DNA from: Frankiaceae bacterium
GTDB taxonomy: Bacteria > Actinomycetota > Actinomycetes > BP-191
Length of the DNA stretch: 64,000 bases
Direction: 5' to 3'
Assembly: GCA_030840645.1 (NCBI GenBank)
Contig: JAVEEC010000008.1
Coordinates: 1-64,000 of the forward strand
Below are positions 4,365-42,503 of the stretch, in pieces. The position numbers and the translations under genes were made by a program. The notes below the pieces were generated by a model, which was not told where the DNA came from, searched no databases, and saw only the letters and a program-made list of their open reading frames with translations. Each line of letters starts with the position of its first letter. Positions within the stretch are counted from its first letter, which is position 1.

Positions 4365-7091
4365 GTGCCCGCGAAGCGTCCGTTGGTGATCGTCGAGTCG
4401 CCCGCGAAGGCGAAGACGATCGCCGGCTTCCTCGGCAACGACTACGTGGTCGAGTCGTCCATCGGCCACATCCGCGACCTGCCGCGCAACGCCGCCGACG
4501 TGCCCGCCGCGTACAAGGGCACGCCGTGGGCCCGGCTCGGGGTGGACGTCGAGAACGACTTCAAGCCGCTCTACGTCGTCAGCCCGGAGAAGCGTGACCA
4601 GGTCCGCAAGCTCAAGGCGCTGCTGAAGGACGCGAGCGAGCTCTACCTCGCGACGGACGAGGACCGCGAGGGCGAGTCGATCGCCTGGCACCTGCGCGAG
4701 GTGCTGTCGCCGCCGGACGTGATGCCGGTGAAGCGGATGGTGTTCCACGAGATCACCCGGGCCGCGATCGAGCGCGCGGTGGACGACTGCCGCGACATCG
4801 ACCAGCACCTGGTGGACGCGCAGGAGGTCCGCCGCATCCTCGACCGCCTCTACGGCTACGAGGTCTCGCCGGTCCTCTGGAAGAAGGTCATGCCGAAGCT
4901 CTCGGCCGGCCGGGTCCAGAGCGTCGCGTGCCGGATCATCGTGGAGCGCGAGCGCGCGCGGATGCGGTTCAACGCCGCCGGCTACTGGGACCTCGAAGGG
5001 ACCTTCGAGCGCGACGGCCAGGCGTTCACGGCGACGCTGGTCGCGCTCGACGGCAAGCGGCTCGCGACTGGCAAGGACTTCGACGAGAGCGGCGCGCTGA
5101 CGAAGGACGCTGTCCTGCTGGACGAGCCGAACGCCCGCGCCCTCGCGCAGCGGCTCGACGGCCGGACCTACGACGTCCGCTCGACCGAGGAGAAGCCGTT
5201 CCGGCGCTCGCCGTACGCGCCGTTCATGACGAGCACGTTGCAGCAGGAGGCGGGGCGCAAGCTGCGCTTCTCCAGCCAGCGCACGATGCAGGTCGCGCAA
5301 CGCCTGTACGAGAACGGCTACATCACCTACATGCGTACGGACTCCACCAACCTCTCCGAGACCGCGCTGACGGCCGCGCGGCAGCAGGCGCGCGAGCTGT
5401 ACGGCCCCGCGTACGTCCCCGACAAGCCGCGCGTCTACGTGAAGAAGGTGAAGAACGCGCAGGAGGCGCACGAGGCGATCCGGCCCGCGGGCGACGCGTT
5501 CCGCACGCCGGACGACGTGTCGCGCGAGCTCTCGGGCGACGAGCTGCGGCTCTACGACCTCGTGTGGAAGCGCACCGTCGCGTCGCAGATGAGCGACGCG
5601 ACCGGGCAGTCGTTGCAGGTCCGCATCGGCGCGCGCATGGAGAGCACGGACGCGGCGGGGTTGGGGTCCCCGCCTGCGGAGGAGGCCGGGGTTGGGGCCC
5701 CGGCCGGGCTGGTGTACACGGACGCGGAGTTCGCCGCGAGCGGCAAGGTCATCACGTTCCCCGGGTTCATGCGTGCGTACGTCGAGGGCGCGGACGACCC
5801 TGAGGCGGAGCTCGAGGACCGCGAGGTCCGGCTGCCGGCGCTGGCGCAGGGCGAGAACGTCGACTGCGCGGGCGTCGAGCCGAAGGGCCACGCGACGCAG
5901 CCGCCGGCGCGCTACACGGAGGCGTCGCTGGTGAAGGCGCTGGAGGAGCTCGGCGTTGGCCGGCCGTCCACGTACGCATCCATCATCGGCACCATCCAGG
6001 ACCGCGGCTACGTCTGGAAGAAGGGGACGGCGCTGATCCCGTCGTTCACCGCGTTCGCCGTCGTGGGCCTGCTCGAGCAGCACTTCGGCCGGCTGGTCGA
6101 CTACCGCTTCACCGCGTCGATGGAGGACGACCTCGACGGGATCGCGACCGGCGCCGAGGACCCGGTCGCGTGGCTGCGGCAGTTCTACGACGGCGGCGCC
6201 GACGACCCCGGCCTGCACCAGCTCGTCTCCGACCACCTCGGCGACATCGACGCGCGCGAGGTCAACTCCATCCCCATCGGTCGGGGCGCCGACGGCGTCG
6301 AGATCCTGGTCCGCGTCGGCCGGTACGGGCCGTACCTCCAGCGCGGCGAGGACCGGGCGTCGGTACCCGAGGACCTGCCGCCGGACGAGCTGACGGTCGA
6401 GAGGGCGGAGGAGCTGCTGTCGGCGCCGTCGGGCGACCGCGCGCTCGGGGCCACACCCGACGGCCTGCCCGTCGTGGCGAAGGCCGGCCGCTACGGCCCG
6501 TACGTCACGACCGTTCCGCCGGAGGGGTCGAAGGACGCGCCGAGGACCGCCAGCCTGTTCAAGTCGATGGACCTCGACACCGTCGACCTCGACACCGCGC
6601 TGCGGCTGCTGACGCTGCCGCGCGTCCTCGGCAACGACCCCGCCGACGGCGAGGAGATCGTCGCGAACAACGGCCGGTACGGCCCGTACGTCAAGAAGGG
6701 CAGTGACTACCGCAACATCGAGTCCGAGGACGCGCTGTTCACCGTGACGCTGGAGGATGCGCTGGCGATCTTCGCGCAGCCGAAGCAGCGGCGCGGGCAG
6801 CGCGAGGCGGCGCCGCCGTTGAAGGAGCTCGGCAACGACCCCGTCTCCGGCAAGCCGATGGTCGTGAAGGAGGGCCGGTTCGGCGCGTACGTCACCGACG
6901 GCGAGACGAACGCCTCCCTGCGCAAGGACGACGCCATCGAGTCGCTGACCGACGAGCGCGCCGCCGAGCTGCTCGCCGACCGCCGCGCGCGCGGCCCGGC
7001 GCCGAAGAAGCGCACCGCCCGCAAGGCCCCGGCGAAGAAAGCAGCCAAGAAGGCGCCGGCCAAGAAGGCGGCCAAGAAGGCCGCGAACTAG
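4365..7091 (+). CDS. topA: DNA topoisomerase I with basic Lys/Ala-rich C-terminal tail
   Basis: KRPLVIVESPAKAKTIAGFLG N-terminus, TDEDREGESIAWHL toprim motif, YITYMRTDSTNLS active-site region; GTG start at 4365; tail KKRTARKAPAKKAAKKAPAKKAAKKAAN. Confidence 0.97.
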   Translation: MPAKRPLVIVESPAKAKTIAGFLGNDYVVESSIGHIRDLPRNAADVPAAYKGTPWARLGVDVENDFKPLYVVSPEKRDQVRKLKALLKDASELYLATDEDREGESIAWHLREVLSPPDVMPVKRMVFHEITRAAIERAVDDCRDIDQHLVDAQEVRRILDRLYGYEVSPVLWKKVMPKLSAGRVQSVACRIIVERERARMRFNAAGYWDLEGTFERDGQAFTATLVALDGKRLATGKDFDESGALTKDAVLLDEPNARALAQRLDGRTYDVRSTEEKPFRRSPYAPFMTSTLQQEAGRKLRFSSQRTMQVAQRLYENGYITYMRTDSTNLSETALTAARQQARELYGPAYVPDKPRVYVKKVKNAQEAHEAIRPAGDAFRTPDDVSRELSGDELRLYDLVWKRTVASQMSDATGQSLQVRIGARMESTDAAGLGSPPAEEAGVGAPAGLVYTDAEFAASGKVITFPGFMRAYVEGADDPEAELEDREVRLPALAQGENVDCAGVEPKGHATQPPARYTEASLVKALEELGVGRPSTYASIIGTIQDRGYVWKKGTALIPSFTAFAVVGLLEQHFGRLVDYRFTASMEDDLDGIATGAEDPVAWLRQFYDGGADDPGLHQLVSDHLGDIDAREVNSIPIGRGADGVEILVRVGRYGPYLQRGEDRASVPEDLPPDELTVERAEELLSAPSGDRALGATPDGLPVVAKAGRYGPYVTTVPPEGSKDAPRTASLFKSMDLDTVDLDTALRLLTLPRVLGNDPADGEEIVANNGRYGPYVKKGSDYRNIESEDALFTVTLEDALAIFAQPKQRRGQREAAPPLKELGNDPVSGKPMVVKEGRFGAYVTDGETNASLRKDDAIESLTDERAAELLADRRARGPAPKKRTARKAPAKKAAKKAPAKKAAKKAAN

Positions 7092-7122: not shown

Positions 7123-7173
7123 CGTTGTGTGCGGGAAATGACCGGCTAGGGCCTGCAGATCCCGCACACAACG
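7123..7173. repeat. 51-bp palindromic repeat, copy R1
   Basis: CGTTGTGTGCGGGAAATGACCGGCTAGGGCCTGCAGATCCCGCACACAACG; 14-bp perfect terminal inverted repeat; second copy at 41648-41698. Confidence 0.85.
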
Positions 7174-7324: not shown

Positions 7325-9328
7325 GTGCTGTCGTACCCGAGCTTCCGCCGGCTCTGGCTGGCGCTGTCCCTGTCCAGCCTCGGCGACTGGCTCGGGCTGC
7401 TCGCGACGACGGCGCTCGGCGCGGCGCTCGCGGGCGGGTCGGCGACCGGGCGGAAGGCGACGTTCGCGATCGGCGGGGTCCTCATCTTCCGGCTGATGCC
7501 GGCGGTGCTGTTCGGGCCGTTCGCCGGGGTGTTCGCGGACCGGTTCGACCGGCGCAAGACGATGGTGGCCTGCGACTGCATGCGCTTCGCGCTGTTCGCG
7601 TCGATCCCCCTCGTACGCAGCCTCTGGTACCTGCTCGCGGCGTCGTTCCTCGTCGAGGCGATCAGCCTGTTCTGGATCCCCGCGAAGGAGGCGTCGGTCC
7701 CCAACCTGCTGCCACCGGCGAAGCTCGAGGCCGCGAACCAGGTCAGCCTGATCACGACGTACGGCACCGCGCCGCTGGCCGCCGCGGTCTTCGCCGGGCT
7801 GGCCGTGCTGTCCAAGACGCTCGGCGCGGCGGTGCCGTTCTTCCGCACCAACCCGGTCGACCTGGCGCTGTACTTCGACGCGGCGACGTTCCTCTTCTCC
7901 GCGATGACGGTGTACCGGCTCAAGGACATCCACGGCGCCCGCCGGGCCGCGCCGGTGCCGGCCGAGGGCGATGTGGTCGAGCACCACGGCGTGTTCCGCG
8001 ACATCGTCGAGGGGTGGCGCTTCGTCGGGTCGACGCCGCTGATCCGCGGCCTCGTCGTCGGGATGCTCGGCGCGTTCGCGGCGGGCGGTACGGCGATCGC
8101 GCTGGGGCGGCCGTTCGTCGGCGTGCTGCGCGGCGGCGACGCGGCGTACGGCCTGCTGTTCGGCGCGATCTTCACCGGCCTCGCGCTCGGCATGGCGCTC
8201 GGTCCGCGGCTGCTGAGCGACCTGTCCAGGCACCGGCTGTTCGGGCTCGCGATCGTGGCCGCCGGCACGTCGCTCGCGATCATGGCGCTGCTGCCGAACC
8301 TCGTGCTCGCGCTGATCGCGACGATGTCGGTGGGGGCGTTCGCGGGCATCGCGTGGATCGTCGGCTACACGCTGCTCGGCCTCGAGGTCGAGGACGACAA
8401 GCGTGGCCGGACGTTCGCCACGGTGCAGTCGCTGGTCCGCGTCGACCTGCTCGTCGTGCTCGCCCTCGCGCCGGTCGTCGCGGGCGTGATCGGGAACCAC
8501 CGCATCCCGCTCGCGCGGGTGTACATCCGCGCCGACGGCATCACGCTGACGCTGTTCTGCGCCGGTCTCGTCGCGGTGCTCGTCGGCGTCGTGTCGTACC
8601 GGCAGATGGACGACGGCGAGGTGCCGCTCTGGCGCGAGCTGGTACGCGCGCTGCCGTGGCTGTCGCGGCGGCGGCCGTCGCTGCCGGGCCTGCTGATCGC
8701 GTTCGAGGGCGGCGAGGGCGCGGGGAAGTCGACGCAGGCCGCGCTGCTCGCCGACTGGCTGCGGAGCCGGCGCGCGGACGTGGTGGTGACGTTCGAGCCG
8801 GGCGCGACCAGGGCGGGCACCGCGATCCGCCAGCTCCTCCTCTCGCCCGCGCACAGCGACCTCTCACCCCGGGCCGAGGCGATGCTGTACGCCGCCGACC
8901 GGGCTCACCACGTCGTCAACGTCATCCGCCCCGCTCTCGAACGCGGCGCCATCGTCGTGACCGACCGCTACGTCGACTCCTCCCTCGCCTACCAGGCCGG
9001 TGGTCGCGAGCTGCCGATGGACGAGATCCGCGCGCTGTCGCGGTGGGCGACCGGCGGCATCCGCCCCGACCTCACGCTGCTGCTCGACCTCGACCCCGAG
9101 GTCGGGCTACGGCGTTCCGGCGGCACGCCGGACCGGATCGAGGCCGAGTCGCTGGCGTTCCACGAACGCGTCCGCGCGACGTTCCGCGCGCTCGCCGCGG
9201 CGGGCGGCTCGCGCTACGTCGTCTGCGACGCGACGCTGCCGGCCGAGGAGATCGCGGCCAAGGTCCGCAAGGAGGTCGAGCACCGGCTCGGCCCGCTGCT
9301 CGACGGCCGCGGTGAGGCGGCGGCGTGA
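7325..9328 (+). CDS. tmk: Fusion protein: MFS-type membrane domain + thymidylate kinase
   Basis: N-terminal ~12 TM MFS-like region; C-terminal IAFEGGEGAGKSTQAALLADWL (P-loop), TDRYVDSSLAYQ, LDLDPEVGLRR typical of dTMP kinase. Reading frame is open upstream and the true start may be ~7241 (ATC preceded by GGAG). Confidence 0.9.
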   Translation: MLSYPSFRRLWLALSLSSLGDWLGLLATTALGAALAGGSATGRKATFAIGGVLIFRLMPAVLFGPFAGVFADRFDRRKTMVACDCMRFALFASIPLVRSLWYLLAASFLVEAISLFWIPAKEASVPNLLPPAKLEAANQVSLITTYGTAPLAAAVFAGLAVLSKTLGAAVPFFRTNPVDLALYFDAATFLFSAMTVYRLKDIHGARRAAPVPAEGDVVEHHGVFRDIVEGWRFVGSTPLIRGLVVGMLGAFAAGGTAIALGRPFVGVLRGGDAAYGLLFGAIFTGLALGMALGPRLLSDLSRHRLFGLAIVAAGTSLAIMALLPNLVLALIATMSVGAFAGIAWIVGYTLLGLEVEDDKRGRTFATVQSLVRVDLLVVLALAPVVAGVIGNHRIPLARVYIRADGITLTLFCAGLVAVLVGVVSYRQMDDGEVPLWRELVRALPWLSRRRPSLPGLLIAFEGGEGAGKSTQAALLADWLRSRRADVVVTFEPGATRAGTAIRQLLLSPAHSDLSPRAEAMLYAADRAHHVVNVIRPALERGAIVVTDRYVDSSLAYQAGGRELPMDEIRALSRWATGGIRPDLTLLLDLDPEVGLRRSGGTPDRIEAESLAFHERVRATFRALAAAGGSRYVVCDATLPAEEIAAKVRKEVEHRLGPLLDGRGEAAA

Positions 9329-27093: not shown

Positions 27094-27146
27094 CGTTCTG
27101 TGAAGATCACCACGCTCAAGCAGGGGCGGGTGGGCTGCACAGAACG
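27094..27146. repeat. 53-bp palindrome-ended repeat-like element R3 between convergent genes
   Basis: CGTTCTGTGAAGATCACCACGCTCAAGCAGGGGCGGGTGGGCTGCACAGAACG; ends CGTTCTGTG/CACAGAACG. Confidence 0.6.
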
Positions 27147-37076: not shown

Positions 37077-38098
37077 GGCCCGCCCGTGGCCGCGGGCGGC
37101 GCGGGCTGCGGCTGGTTCTGGCCGGGGCTCGGCGCGGGCGACGAGAGGTCGTCGCCGCTGACCGCGACGACGCCGTTGCCGTTGGGGTCCCAGCCGCCGA
37201 AGCGCGGGTTGACCTTGACCTTCAGCCGCTTGGTGAGGTCGGTCATGTAGGCGGCGAGCTTCTGCTCGCGGGCCTGCCCGATGACCGTGCGGCGCAGCTC
37301 GTCGCGCGCCTGCGCGAACGTCGTCGTCCGCCGCTCGATCACCTTGACGACCTCGTACCCCGACTCCGCCTTGATCGGCCCGACGATCGAGCCGGTCTGC
37401 CCGGTGAAGATCGCCTTCTCGAACGACGCCTGGAACTTGCCGTCGCCGTTGCCGATCTGCCCGAGGTCGCCGCCCTCGGTGTTGGTGTTCGCGTCCTGCG
37501 AGTACTTCTTCGCCAGCGCCGCGAAGTCGGCGCCGGGCTTGCGCGCCTCTGTCGCGACGGTCGCCGCGGTCGCGGCGTCCTTCACCAGGATGTGCGCGAT
37601 GTGCGCGACGTCGAGCTGCGGCAGCGCCTTCGCGTACGCCTCGGTGAGCTGCTTCTCGGTCACGACGACGTCCGCGACCAGCTTGTCCGCGACGGCGTCG
37701 CGCAGGACCAGGTCGTGCGTCGCGTCCCGGAGGTCCTCCTTGGCGACGCCCTGCGCCGCTGCCTGGGCCTCGAGCTGCTGCTGGCCGCCGGCGTTGTCGG
37801 CGAACCGCTTGAGCTGGGCGTCGACCTGCGCCTCGGTGACCGTGACGCCGAGCCGTTGCGCGGCGACCTCGATGAGGTGCGCGGAGATCAGGCGGTTCAG
37901 CCACTGCCGCTGGTACTCGTCCTTGGGGTGGGACTGCGCGAACGCCTTGTTCTCGTAGCCGCGCGTCACGCGGGTCGTCAGCGCCGAGGTCGTGATCCGC
38001 GTGTCGCCCACGCGGGCCGCGACACCGGCGCCGGTCCGCGCGCAGCCCGCGAGGGTCAGGCAGGCGAGGGCGAGCGCCCCGAGACGGCGAACGTTCAC
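37073..38098 (-). CDS. SurA N-terminal/PpiC-type peptidylprolyl isomerase lipoprotein
   Basis: Lipobox LTLAGC; VAHIAHILVKDAATAATVATEARKPGADFAALAKKYSQDANTNTEGGDLG parvulin motif. Confidence 0.92.
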   Translation of the reverse strand: MNVRRLGALALACLTLAGCARTGAGVAARVGDTRITTSALTTRVTRGYENKAFAQSHPKDEYQRQWLNRLISAHLIEVAAQRLGVTVTEAQVDAQLKRFADNAGGQQQLEAQAAAQGVAKEDLRDATHDLVLRDAVADKLVADVVVTEKQLTEAYAKALPQLDVAHIAHILVKDAATAATVATEARKPGADFAALAKKYSQDANTNTEGGDLGQIGNGDGKFQASFEKAIFTGQTGSIVGPIKAESGYEVVKVIERRTTTFAQARDELRRTVIGQAREQKLAAYMTDLTKRLKVKVNPRFGGWDPNGNGVVAVSGDDLSSPAPSPGQNQPQPAPPAATGGP

Positions 38099-41000
38099 GT
38101 AACGGATCCTTCCGGGACGGGCTGGTCGAGTACGGCGTCGAGCACGTCGGTGCACCACGCCAGGAGGTCAGTGTCGCGTACGTCGGGCCGCGGCACGAGC
38201 ACGGTCCGCACGGCCTGCTTCACGATCGCCCCCTTGTAGAGGCGCTGCAGCCGCAGCTGCTGGCTCTCCAGCAGCTCCAGCGGCGCGAAGCGGACGGCGC
38301 TGCCCTGCACCGAGACCTCGGTGATGCCGAGCCCCCTGGCGCGGTTGCGGAACGCCGCCACGGCCATCAGGTTCTCGACCTGCGCGGGCAGCGGGCCGTA
38401 CCTGTCGGAGAGCTCCTCGCGGACGGCGTCGAGCGTCGGCGCGTCGTGGGCGGCGGCGATCCGGCCGTACGCCTGGATGCGCAGCCGCTCCTCGGGGATG
38501 TAGGAGTGCGGCAGCGCGGCGTCGACGGGGAGGTTGACCTTGACCTCGATCTCCTCCTCGCGCTTCTCCCCCTTGAACTCCGCGACCGCCTCGCCGACGA
38601 GGCGCACGTAGAGGTCGAAGCCGACGGCCGCGATGTGCCCGCTCTGCTCGCCGCCGAGCAGGTTGCCCGCGCCGCGGATCTCGAGGTCCTTCAACGCCAC
38701 CGCCATGCCGGCGCCGAGCTCGGCGTTCTGCGCGATCGTCTGCAGGCGGTCGTACGCGAGCTCCGAGAGCGGCTTCTCCGGCGGGTAGAGGAAGTACGCG
38801 TACGCCCGCTCCCGCCCACGGCCGACGCGGCCTCGTAGCTGGTGGAGCTGGGACAGACCGAGGGCGTCGGCGCGCTCCACGATCAACGTGTTCGCGTTGG
38901 CGATGTCGAGTCCCGACTCCACGATCGTGGTGCAGACGAGGACGTCGAACTCCTTCTCCCAGAACTCCACCATCACGTGTTCGAGCAGGTCCTCGTTCAT
39001 CTGGCCGTGCGCGGTGCGGATGCGCGCCTCGGGCACCAGCTCGCGCAGCCGCTGCCCGGCCTTCTCAATCGAGTCGACCCGGTTGTGCACGAAGAACACC
39101 TGGCCCTCGCGCAGCAGCTCCCGGCGGATCGCCGCGCCGATCTGCCGCTCGTCGTACGGGCCGACGAACGTCAGCACCGGGTGGCGTTCCTCCGGCGGGG
39201 TGTCGATGGTCGACAGCTCGCGGATGCCGGTGATGCTCATCTCCAGCGTCCGCGGGATCGGCGTGGCGCTCATCGTCAGCACGTCGACGCTGGTGCGCAG
39301 CCGCTTCAGGTACTCCTTGTGCTCGACGCCGAAGCGCTGCTCCTCGTCCACGACGACCAGCCCGAGGTCCTTGAACTTGGTCGACGTCGAGAGCAGCCGG
39401 TGGGTGCCGATGACGACGTCGACGGTGCCGTCCGCGACGCCGTCGAGGATCGCTGCCTGCTCCTTCGCGGAGTTGAACCGGCTGACGCCGCGCACCGCGA
39501 CGGGGAACTGCGCGAACCGTTCACTGAACGTCTGGAGGTGCTGCTGCGCAAGGAGAGTCGTGGGTACGAGGATGCCGACCTGCTTGCCGTCCATGACCGC
39601 CTTGAACGCCGCGCGGACGGCGATCTCCGTCTTGCCGTAGCCGACGTCACCGCAGATGACCCGGTCCATCGGGACCGGCGACTCCATGTCGGCCTTGACC
39701 TCGTTGATGGCGGCGAGCTGGTCCGGCGTCTCGTGGTACGGGAACGCGTCCTCCAGCTCCGCCTGCCACGGCGTGTCCGGACCGAACTGGTAGCCGGGGC
39801 TCGCCATCCGCGCGCTGTAGAGGCGGATCAGCTCGGCGGCGATCTCGCGGACCGCCTTGCGCGCGCGGCCCTTGGCCTTGGCCCAGTCGCTGCCGCCGAT
39901 CCGGTGCAGCGTCGGTGCCTCGCCGCCGACGTAGCGGGTGACGAGGTCGAGCGAGTCGGTGGGCACGCGGAGCTGGTCGCCCTTGGCGTACTCCAGGACG
40001 AGGTACTCGCGCTCGCCGCCGTTGACCGTGCGCTTCTCCATCTGCACGTACCGGCCGACGCCGTGGGACTCGTGCACGACGTAGTCGCCGGGGCGCAGCG
40101 ACAGCAGGTCGACGGCGTTGCGCCGCCGGCTCGGCATCCGGCGCATGTCCTTCGTCGCGGAACGCTGCCCGGCGAAGTCGGTCTCCGTGACGACCGCGAG
40201 CTTGAGGCCCGGCGCGACGAAGCCGTCGTCGAACACCGCGTTGCTCACGACGATCCCCGGCTCCGGCGGCGCGTCCAGCTCGGCCGTCACCCGGACGCCG
40301 AGGTCGTGCTCGCGCAGCACCTCGGCGAGGCGTTCGGCCGGGCCGTGGCCCTCGGTCACGAACACCACGCGCCAGCCGTCGCGCGACCAGTCCCTCGCGT
40401 CGTTGACCAGCTTGTCCATGTCGCCGACGTACGGCTCGTGCGCCCGCGCGTCGACCACGTGCTCGGCGTCCTCGTCGGCCGCGAACGGCGACAGCGTCCA
40501 CCACGCGATGCCCTGCTCCAACGCCGTCGTCCGGACGTCGGCGACCTCGCGGTACGCCGCCGCGCCGAGGTCGACGGGCGCCGTCCCGCCGCCGGCCGCG
40601 ACCGCCCACGACGCTTCGAGGAACTCCTCGCTGGTCCTGGTCAGCTCCTCGGCCCTGGACCGCACGCGCTCGGGGTCGCAGACGAGGACGTGCGCGCCCG
40701 CGGGCAGCTCCTCGACCAGCAGGACCAGGTCGTCGACGAGGACCGGCGCGAGCGCCTCCATGCCCTCGACCGGCGTTCCGTCGGCGAGCTTGTCGAGGAT
40801 CTCGACCAGCTCTGGATGCTTGTCGGCGAGGTTGCGCGCGCGGTCTCGCACGTCCGGCGTCAGCAGCAGCTCGCGGCACGGCGGCGCCCACAGCCCGTGC
40901 TCTGCCTCGCCGAGTGAACGTTGCGTGCCGGCCGCGAAGTAGCGGACGTCCTCGACCTCGTCGCCCCAGAGCTCGATGCGGACCGGGTGCTCCTCGGTCG

Positions 41001-41562
41001 GCGGGAACACGTCGAGGATGCCGCCGCGGACCGCGAACTCCCCGCGCTTCTCGACCAGGTCGACGCGGCTGTAGCAGTAGTCGACCAGCCGGCCGACGAA
41101 CGCGTCGAGGTCGACGGTGGCGCCTTTCGCCGTGACGAGCGGCGGCAGGTCGCCGAGGCCCTTCACTTGCGGCTGGAGCAGGCTGCGTACGGGGGCCACG
41201 ACGACCTTCAACGGGCCGTCGTCGCCCGGGTGAGCGAGGCGTCGTAGCACGGCGATCCGCCGCCCTACGGTGTCGGCCCGGGGGCTGAGCCGTTCGTGGG
41301 GCAGCGTCTCCCAGGCCGGGTACTCCGCGACCGACTCGGGCGGCAGCAGGCAGCGCAGCGCAGCGGTCAGGTCCTCGGCCTCGCGGCCGGTGGCGGTGAC
41401 GGCGACGACGAGGCGTTGCGTCTCGTTCGCCAGGGTCGCGACCGCGAACGGCCGCAGCGGGGCCGGCGCGGTCAGCCCGAGCTCGGGCTCACCCGCCCGC
41501 GCGGCGGCGCGGGCGAGCGCGGGCTCGGCCGCGAGCAGCGGGACGAGTCCAGGTACGGCCAC
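38095..41562 (-). CDS. mfd: Transcription-repair coupling factor
   Basis: DRVICGDVGYGKTEIAVRAAFKAV, DEEQRFGVEHKE, SATPIPRTLEMS; UvrB-like N-terminal module. Confidence 0.97.
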   Translation of the reverse strand: MAVPGLVPLLAAEPALARAAARAGEPELGLTAPAPLRPFAVATLANETQRLVVAVTATGREAEDLTAALRCLLPPESVAEYPAWETLPHERLSPRADTVGRRIAVLRRLAHPGDDGPLKVVVAPVRSLLQPQVKGLGDLPPLVTAKGATVDLDAFVGRLVDYCYSRVDLVEKRGEFAVRGGILDVFPPTEEHPVRIELWGDEVEDVRYFAAGTQRSLGEAEHGLWAPPCRELLLTPDVRDRARNLADKHPELVEILDKLADGTPVEGMEALAPVLVDDLVLLVEELPAGAHVLVCDPERVRSRAEELTRTSEEFLEASWAVAAGGGTAPVDLGAAAYREVADVRTTALEQGIAWWTLSPFAADEDAEHVVDARAHEPYVGDMDKLVNDARDWSRDGWRVVFVTEGHGPAERLAEVLREHDLGVRVTAELDAPPEPGIVVSNAVFDDGFVAPGLKLAVVTETDFAGQRSATKDMRRMPSRRRNAVDLLSLRPGDYVVHESHGVGRYVQMEKRTVNGGEREYLVLEYAKGDQLRVPTDSLDLVTRYVGGEAPTLHRIGGSDWAKAKGRARKAVREIAAELIRLYSARMASPGYQFGPDTPWQAELEDAFPYHETPDQLAAINEVKADMESPVPMDRVICGDVGYGKTEIAVRAAFKAVMDGKQVGILVPTTLLAQQHLQTFSERFAQFPVAVRGVSRFNSAKEQAAILDGVADGTVDVVIGTHRLLSTSTKFKDLGLVVVDEEQRFGVEHKEYLKRLRTSVDVLTMSATPIPRTLEMSITGIRELSTIDTPPEERHPVLTFVGPYDERQIGAAIRRELLREGQVFFVHNRVDSIEKAGQRLRELVPEARIRTAHGQMNEDLLEHVMVEFWEKEFDVLVCTTIVESGLDIANANTLIVERADALGLSQLHQLRGRVGRGRERAYAYFLYPPEKPLSELAYDRLQTIAQNAELGAGMAVALKDLEIRGAGNLLGGEQSGHIAAVGFDLYVRLVGEAVAEFKGEKREEEIEVKVNLPVDAALPHSYIPEERLRIQAYGRIAAAHDAPTLDAVREELSDRYGPLPAQVENLMAVAAFRNRARGLGITEVSVQGSAVRFAPLELLESQQLRLQRLYKGAIVKQAVRTVLVPRPDVRDTDLLAWCTDVLDAVLDQPVPEGSVT

Positions 41563-41647: not shown

Positions 41648-41698
41648 CGTTGTGTGCGGGATTCGACCGGCTAGGGCCGTCGAATCCCGCACACAACG
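41648..41698. repeat. 51-bp palindromic repeat, copy R2
   Basis: CGTTGTGTGCGGGATTCGACCGGCTAGGGCCGTCGAATCCCGCACACAACG; 20-bp perfect stem with 11-nt loop; shares ends and core with R1. Confidence 0.85.
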
Positions 41699-41711: not shown

Positions 41712-42503
41712 TCAGGCGACGGGGACCCGGCCGCGGGCCGCCCACGCGCGGGCCGTCAGCGGGATGGTGCCGTCGGGGGCGGTGGGGAGGCGTTCGCGCA
41801 GGGCCTCGCGCAGCGCGTCCCGGCGCTCCTCCGGCAGCCCTGCCAGGTACGTCGGGCCGGGGCCCTGTCCGCCGAGGAACGGCGTCCAGTAGTCGTCGAA
41901 GTCGCGGAACACCGTCGGCACGGTGATGGCGCGCGTCTCGACACCGTCGAGCCCGCCGAACAGCGTGCCCAGCGCGCCCGCCTTGCAGAGCGGGAAGCGC
42001 ACCGCCTCGTCCAGCGAGTGCGCGTCCGGGTCGAGGTCCACTGCGACGTCCCAGAACGTGCGCAGCAGCGCGAGACCGCCGGCGCCGTAGTCCCAGACGT
42101 ACGCCGCGATCGTCCCGCCCGGGCGGACCGCGCGGCGGATCTCGGTGAGGGCCGCGGCCGGGTCGGGCACGAAGTTGAGGACCAGGCCGGTGACCGCGAC
42201 GTCGAACGCGTCGTCCTCGACCGGCAGCGCCATCGCGTCGCCGACGCGGAACGTCGCCCGCCGGTCGGGCACGTGCGCTTCGGCGAACGCGACGTAGGCC
42301 GGCGCCGGGTCGACGCCGACGACGCTCGCGGGCGCCGCGTCGCGCAGGACGGTCCCGGAGAGCGCGCCGGTGCCGCAGCCGACGTCGAGCCAGCGCAGGT
42401 CGGGCGGCGCGCCGAGCCACTCGACGAACTCCGGCGCGACGAGGCGGCTCCACCGGCCGATGAACGGCTCGTACGCGTCTCCGCTCGACCAGCGTTCGCT
42501 CAT
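41712..42503 (-). CDS. Class I SAM-dependent methyltransferase
   Basis: [36 protein letters not shown] overlap with pth. Confidence 0.9.

Follow-up and report, generated by a model that had tools for sequence, protein, structure and literature searches.

A fixed-length 51-bp palindrome family dispersed at gene 3′ ends of an actinobacterial draft genome: a candidate REP-like element of an endonuclease-associated type

Two palindromes of 51 bp each, located at 7123-7173 (R1) and 41648-41698 (R2) of the stretch of 64,000 nucleotides analysed here (hereafter the window, which lies on contig C91 of a draft genome of 3.5 Mb in 152 contigs with completeness 100 and contamination 6.99), raise the question of what kind of genetic element they represent and by what means they were scattered. 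As claimed in the preliminary description, whose positions and letters proved accurate, both copies carry the same 14-bp outer arms CGTTGTGTGCGGGA and TCCCGCACACAACG and the same core GACCGGCTAGGGCC; the stem of R2 is perfect over 20 bp, while the inner arm of R1 is partly unpaired. The features of the window relevant for this question are as follows.

4365..7091, plus strand: topA (Topoisom_bac, Toprim), upstream of R1
7123..7173, no strand: R1, a copy of the family named here fam1, 31 bp beyond the topA stop codon
7146..7149, no strand: central CTAG of R1, matching the IS481 insertion point of two other copies
7325..9328, plus strand: gene of an MFS-thymidylate kinase fusion (tmk), downstream of R1
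27094..27146, plus strand: copy of another palindrome family, fam2, CGTTCTGTGAAGATCACC...GGGCTGCACAGAACG
38095..41562, minus strand: mfd (CarD_TRCF_RID, TRCF), with its start beyond R2
41648..41698, no strand: R2, fam1 copy, 13 bp beyond the stop of the minus-strand methyltransferase gene and 85 bp before mfd
41671..41674, no strand: central CTAG of R2
41712..42503, minus strand: methyltransferase gene, the 3′ end of which adjoins R2

Screening of the 3.5-Mb draft for the exact arms separated by a free spacer of 8-38 bases gave 11 occurrences, with a spacer of 23 bases every time, and none for the reversed control pattern. If up to three mismatches were allowed in the arms, 23 full-length copies were obtained, all with a 23-base core, again against 0 for the reversed control; the arm pattern is far beyond chance. 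Four further copies are truncated where a contig ends (C11, C15, C85, and C148) and two are split by IS481-family elements, bringing the family to at least 29 members, so that the pair from which the preliminary description started is by no means the whole of it. The aligned copies, with the consensus CGTTGTGTGCGGGATNTGCCNGGCTAGGGCCCGCAAATCCCGCACACAACG, start with CGTTGTG and end with CACAACG. Their outer arms are nearly invariant, rare changes being confined to one side, and the inner arms are more variable, partly in compensated pairs, although this covariation is modest (its score was reached by 12 of 500 shuffles). Folded as single strands the copies yield -33 to -43 kcal/mol (z -7 to -10), and no Rfam family matches at the palindromes. 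The role of an uptake signal was rejected: every half-site of fam1 either belongs to a palindrome, is due to a contig end or an IS interruption, or is the one degenerate half-site at C120. The latter (L104 953-966; G000:C120), with the sequence GAAGATCCCGCACAGAACG, stands alone behind the stop of a gene and looks like an intermediate between fam1 and fam2.

Placement relative to genes was assessed for 22 copies using a home-made codon-usage gene caller. None of them lies inside a gene, though 91% of the sequence is coding, and 20 of the 22 lie next to the 3′ end of a gene, in most cases 2-31 bases downstream of the stop codon, which substantiates the bias to gene 3′ ends that had been proposed for checking. 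Within gaps between genes of the same direction the palindrome is closer to the 3′ end of the upstream gene in 12 of 14 cases (p 0.006), and convergent gaps accommodate 5/22 copies vs 7% of intergenic length. The asymmetric core shows no preferred orientation relative to the gene, being mixed among the copies. Single-copy genes including topA, mfd, gyrB, rpsO, and rplL are found among the neighbors, and no protein neighbor is shared by fam1 copies except IS481 and two response regulators. Near the copy adjoining rpsO, an Actino-pnp RNA (RF01688) was registered at L002 935-995.

The family is species-specific. It was found neither in two genomes of the same genus (G001 and G002) nor in 95 other genomes of the class; exact copies are absent from other genera among 84,980 species genomes, and covariance-model matches in other genomes of the class were weak (E 1e-6 to 1e-2, one to three per genome). 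Viral contigs and phage records gave no match, and a phage or viral origin was discarded on this ground. Comparison within the genus, based on 462-605 kb per genome (own, G001, and G002) and the home-made gene caller, revealed sister palindrome families of their own fixed length: FA (56 bp, 15 copies in 565 kb) and FB (69 bp, six copies) in G001, and FD (55 bp, three copies) in G002. Covariation in FA is strong, with seven pairs changed on both sides and 0/500 shuffles reaching its score. At the sites occupied by fam1 other families replace it: the topA-tmk gap holding R1 contains a different palindrome family in the sister genome, the gap near mfd holding R2 contains fam2 in G001 and no palindrome in G002, the C141 gap has another palindrome in G002, the groEL end has an FA palindrome in G001, and the C78 gap has none in G001. 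As to fam2, it is 52-54 nt long, resides at gene 3′ ends, occurs six times within 462 kb of own-genome sequence, has relatives in G001, and has 8/9 terminal bases in common with fam1 (CGTT[G/C]TGTG). One more hairpin family, present in G001 and G002 (e.g., L134 13647-13715 and L133 13221-13306), is organized in the reverse of the fam1 manner, with conserved loop-side letters GACTAAAG..CTAG and outer arms that vary freely.

Some of these families are accompanied by a gene. Both G001 and G002 contain full palindromes with a half copy at a distance of about 1 kb, and the gene enclosed between the two encodes a product with weak Pfam matches to AbiEi_4, MTES_1575, and DUF559; fam2 likewise flanks an endonuclease gene in G001. 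Profile search detected one such AbiEi/Vsr gene in the own genome, five in G001 (one in two frames), and one in G002, and each of them has its own palindrome family, with a palindrome ahead of the gene and another, whole or half, at its stop. Flanking palindromes are clear at 6/7 of these genes, the palindrome and half-site at the G001 C1 gene being weaker and recognized by eye. Their flank-repeat scores amount to 33, 22, 11, 26, 36, 52, and 35, vs one value of 22 and all others not exceeding 17 among 254 control genes. All seven (L211, L212, L213, L215, L217, L218, and L126) are preceded by the motif GTCCACAG, found upstream of 15/995 genes in general, a set that includes some of the seven. 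This motif often appears as TTGTCCACAG, a form similar to the DnaA box of high-GC bacteria. The own genome contributes the following gene.

L213 1483-2394 (G000:C46): AbiEi/Vsr-like gene situated between ilvC and serA, the only one detected in the own genome

It is flanked by palindromes GCTACTGGTGGGTAGCG..CGCTACTCACCAGTAGC, a type other than fam1, and an AbiEi/Vsr gene flanked by fam1 (CGTTGTGTGCGGGAT repeats) was not found in the own draft genome. The orthologous site in G001 is occupied as well (gene C5), so this pair of genes is no proof of recent jumping. The structure of the C46 protein predicted by AlphaFold2 (pLDDT 88.8) matches the AbiEi antitoxin (6y8q) together with the catalytic domain of homing endonuclease I-Bth0305I (3r3p), the latter being the best match among nucleases with a target TM-score of 0.73. 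The paired protein is modeled as a combination of AbiEi-like and Vsr/I-Bth0305I-like folds.

The same layout is not restricted to this genus. A scan of public genomes provided nine AbiEi/Vsr loci in other genera, and plasmid records provided two Tsukamurella genes and one Nonomuraea gene of this type (no matches came from querying plasmids with two other members of the family). Palindrome-flanked genes were encountered in Curtobacterium, Amnibacterium, a Pseudonocardiales MAG, and Tsukamurella, and 8/12 genes outside the genus score 19 or higher, while none of 32 control genes from these loci exceeds 15; with all controls pooled, 1/286 genes passes. Four of the 12 fall within the control range by score, namely Curtobacterium L225-L227 and Nonomuraea L229; flanking palindromes are visible by eye at L225 and L227, and the Nonomuraea homologue is devoid of them. 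In five Curtobacterium species the palindrome-gene-palindrome block occupies one conserved site and differs in sequence, most clearly in L224, and similarity of the flanks ends near the palindrome edges. In Tsukamurella, both palindromes have additional dispersed intergenic copies, which occur only in the records of that species.

Taken together, these data suggest that fam1 is probably mobile but non-autonomous, resembling REP elements and representing a new type associated with endonucleases. It would belong to a set of palindromes of 41-74 bp in which the outer arms are conserved, changes of the inner arms are compensated, and length is fixed within the family. These palindromes lie just past stop codons in this actinobacterial genus and turn over between species, and families of this kind are paired with a gene for a protein composed of an AbiEi-like DNA-binding part and a Vsr/I-Bth0305I-like (homing-endonuclease) part. 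Such a protein may recognize the arms and cut at or near its target, so that repair of the break would copy the palindrome, with or without the gene, into a new site; the palindromes may persist at gene 3′ ends as the places of least harm. The AbiEi/Vsr protein, or a lost relative, would have spread fam1 by this cutting and repair, i.e., the family, an orphan in this draft, is inferred to have used a partner of the same kind as its sisters. Against the model stands the fact that neither a target-site duplication nor a precise empty site of fam1 is definable, and compensatory changes may reflect replication-templated correction of the palindrome as well as selection. A wider reading, to which we would give slightly less than an even chance, is that palindrome-flanked AbiEi-Vsr genes in several orders of Actinomycetes constitute a new class of selfish elements scattering their ends as REP-like repeats, fam1 being one of the products; by analogy, an endonuclease might here take the role that the transposase has in RAYT systems.

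The palindromes also serve as targets for other elements. At two loci, transposase genes are enclosed by a pair of inverted fam1 half-sites spaced by about 1.1 kb, an arrangement expected if the palindrome were a MITE and its arms the terminal repeats of an IS. Each pair, however, turned out to be a single fam1 palindrome split by an IS481-family element identified by its transposase domains.

L098 3459-4620 and L099 7789-8926: IS481-family elements in the CTAG of fam1, one transposase intact and one split between frames

The two elements differ, and each has its own ends (TGTCCTGACCGG.. and TGTAGCGACCTG..), inside the palindrome between CCTAGC duplications. Both sit exactly at the central CTAG, with this 6-bp duplication on both sides, i.e., at two fam1 copies the insertion agrees with the NCTAGN target preference reported for IS481 of Bordetella (PMC3053399). 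The arms are therefore the target and not the transposon ends, the elements are guests within the palindrome, and the MITE interpretation, refuted as regards IS481, is scarcely credible. In 462 kb of sequence from the own genome, 92 CTAG sites lie outside gene bodies and only 5 of them within fam1, which gives two of two insertions there a chance of about 0.3% as a coincidence; in the congener G002 both IS481-type copies checked also adjoin a CTAG, but outside the fam1 palindrome. The attention drawn in the preliminary description to the CTAG of the core was thus well placed.

Among the remaining interpretations, that of bidirectional terminators or protectors of mRNA 3′ ends, maintained by selection and homogenized by gene conversion, deserves the closest consideration. 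Stable hairpins mostly 2-31 bases past stop codons, their enrichment in convergent gaps, and the frequent presence of a different palindrome at the same gene end in the sister species are all in its favor. Nevertheless, one fam1 copy lies between nuoI and nuoJ, within the nuo operon, where a strong terminator would harm, no U-tract terminator is called at R1, some orthologous gaps are free of palindromes, and many gene ends are already filled by generic hairpins of unrelated sequence. Neither the invariant arm letters and the fixed length of 51 bp, which termination does not need, nor the mixed orientation relative to the gene fit this function, making it unlikely as the explanation of the family.

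In favor of a classic REP mobilized by a RAYT since lost or left unassembled speak the dispersed extragenic occurrence of the palindrome and the state of the draft, with 152 contigs, several of which end in the fam1 repeat. Yet the RAYT-like transposase suggested earlier as a partner did not come to light: no Y1_Tnp (PF01797) protein was found in the own genome by a search that was positive in five well-known control genomes. As the genes accompanying the sister families code for proteins of a different family and 51 bp exceeds the 20-40 bp given for REPs (PMC3733652), we regard this variant as improbable. Constancy of the outer arm letters, with their rare one-sided changes, the variable inner arms, and the fixed spacing would suit a duplex binding site of a chromosomal protein engaged in nucleoid organization, replication, or regulation; a host function, however, should not vanish completely in two congeners, and the copies adjoin unrelated genes, at their 3′ ends, which renders such a site improbable as well.

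Many repeat families have no known mover, although an association with RAYT transposases is established for REP-like palindromes. If palindromes have a further enzyme partner, unrelated to the first, actinobacterial hairpin repeats would acquire a candidate mover, and uncharacterized genes of AbiEi/DUF559/Vsr type would gain a testable function. Repeated re-occupation of gene 3′ ends by hairpins that may be selfish also matters for terminator annotation and for mapping of IS481 landing sites. No earlier report linking MTES_1575/DUF559/AbiEi_4-type genes to palindromic repeats was found in the open-access literature.

Comparison with known systems delineates the proposed group. An intrinsic terminator shares with fam1 a stable hairpin and differs in the T run (U tract), lacking at R1. 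IS elements inserting into REPs (IS1397, IS621, and ISPpu9) resemble the present case in that two different IS entered the center of a palindrome, although the IS481 family is outside the five families (IS3, IS110, IS4, IS256, and IS5) listed for this behavior (PMC1525189). The paired proteins share weak Pfam matches to the MTES_1575-type Vsr REase (PF18741; described as a Vsr-family REase in PMC3710099), DUF559, and AbiEi_4, and their predicted catalytic domain relates them to Vsr-like homing endonucleases such as I-Bth0305I; unlike these, the gene is palindrome-flanked with dispersed copies, lies outside an intron or intein, and encodes an AbiEi-like N-terminal part. Assignment to REP/BIME-like units, put forward at the outset, stands in its first half, given the many dispersed copies at gene 3′ ends, and falls in the second, since the fam1 copies are solitary and the alternating-orientation clusters of BIMEs are not seen. 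The difference from REPs extends to the absence of the GTAG head and of the GTAG or CGTC end tag, to length, and to the unrelated fold of the gene product paired with sister families, an AbiEi/Vsr-like endonuclease. With respect to the endonuclease-associated group, fam1 has the fixed length, conserved outer arms, intergenic location, and species-specificity, and covarying inner arms to a modest degree; a partner gene flanked by the same family is seen for the sister families and for fam2, which shares its ends with fam1, and none was found for fam1 in the draft. In being short, dispersed, extragenic, species-specific, and multicopy, with conserved ends and compensating stems, fam1 is nonetheless closest to REPs, and its sister families place a nuclease-type gene between two palindrome copies just as two inverted REPs invariably enclose a RAYT gene (PMC2817692).
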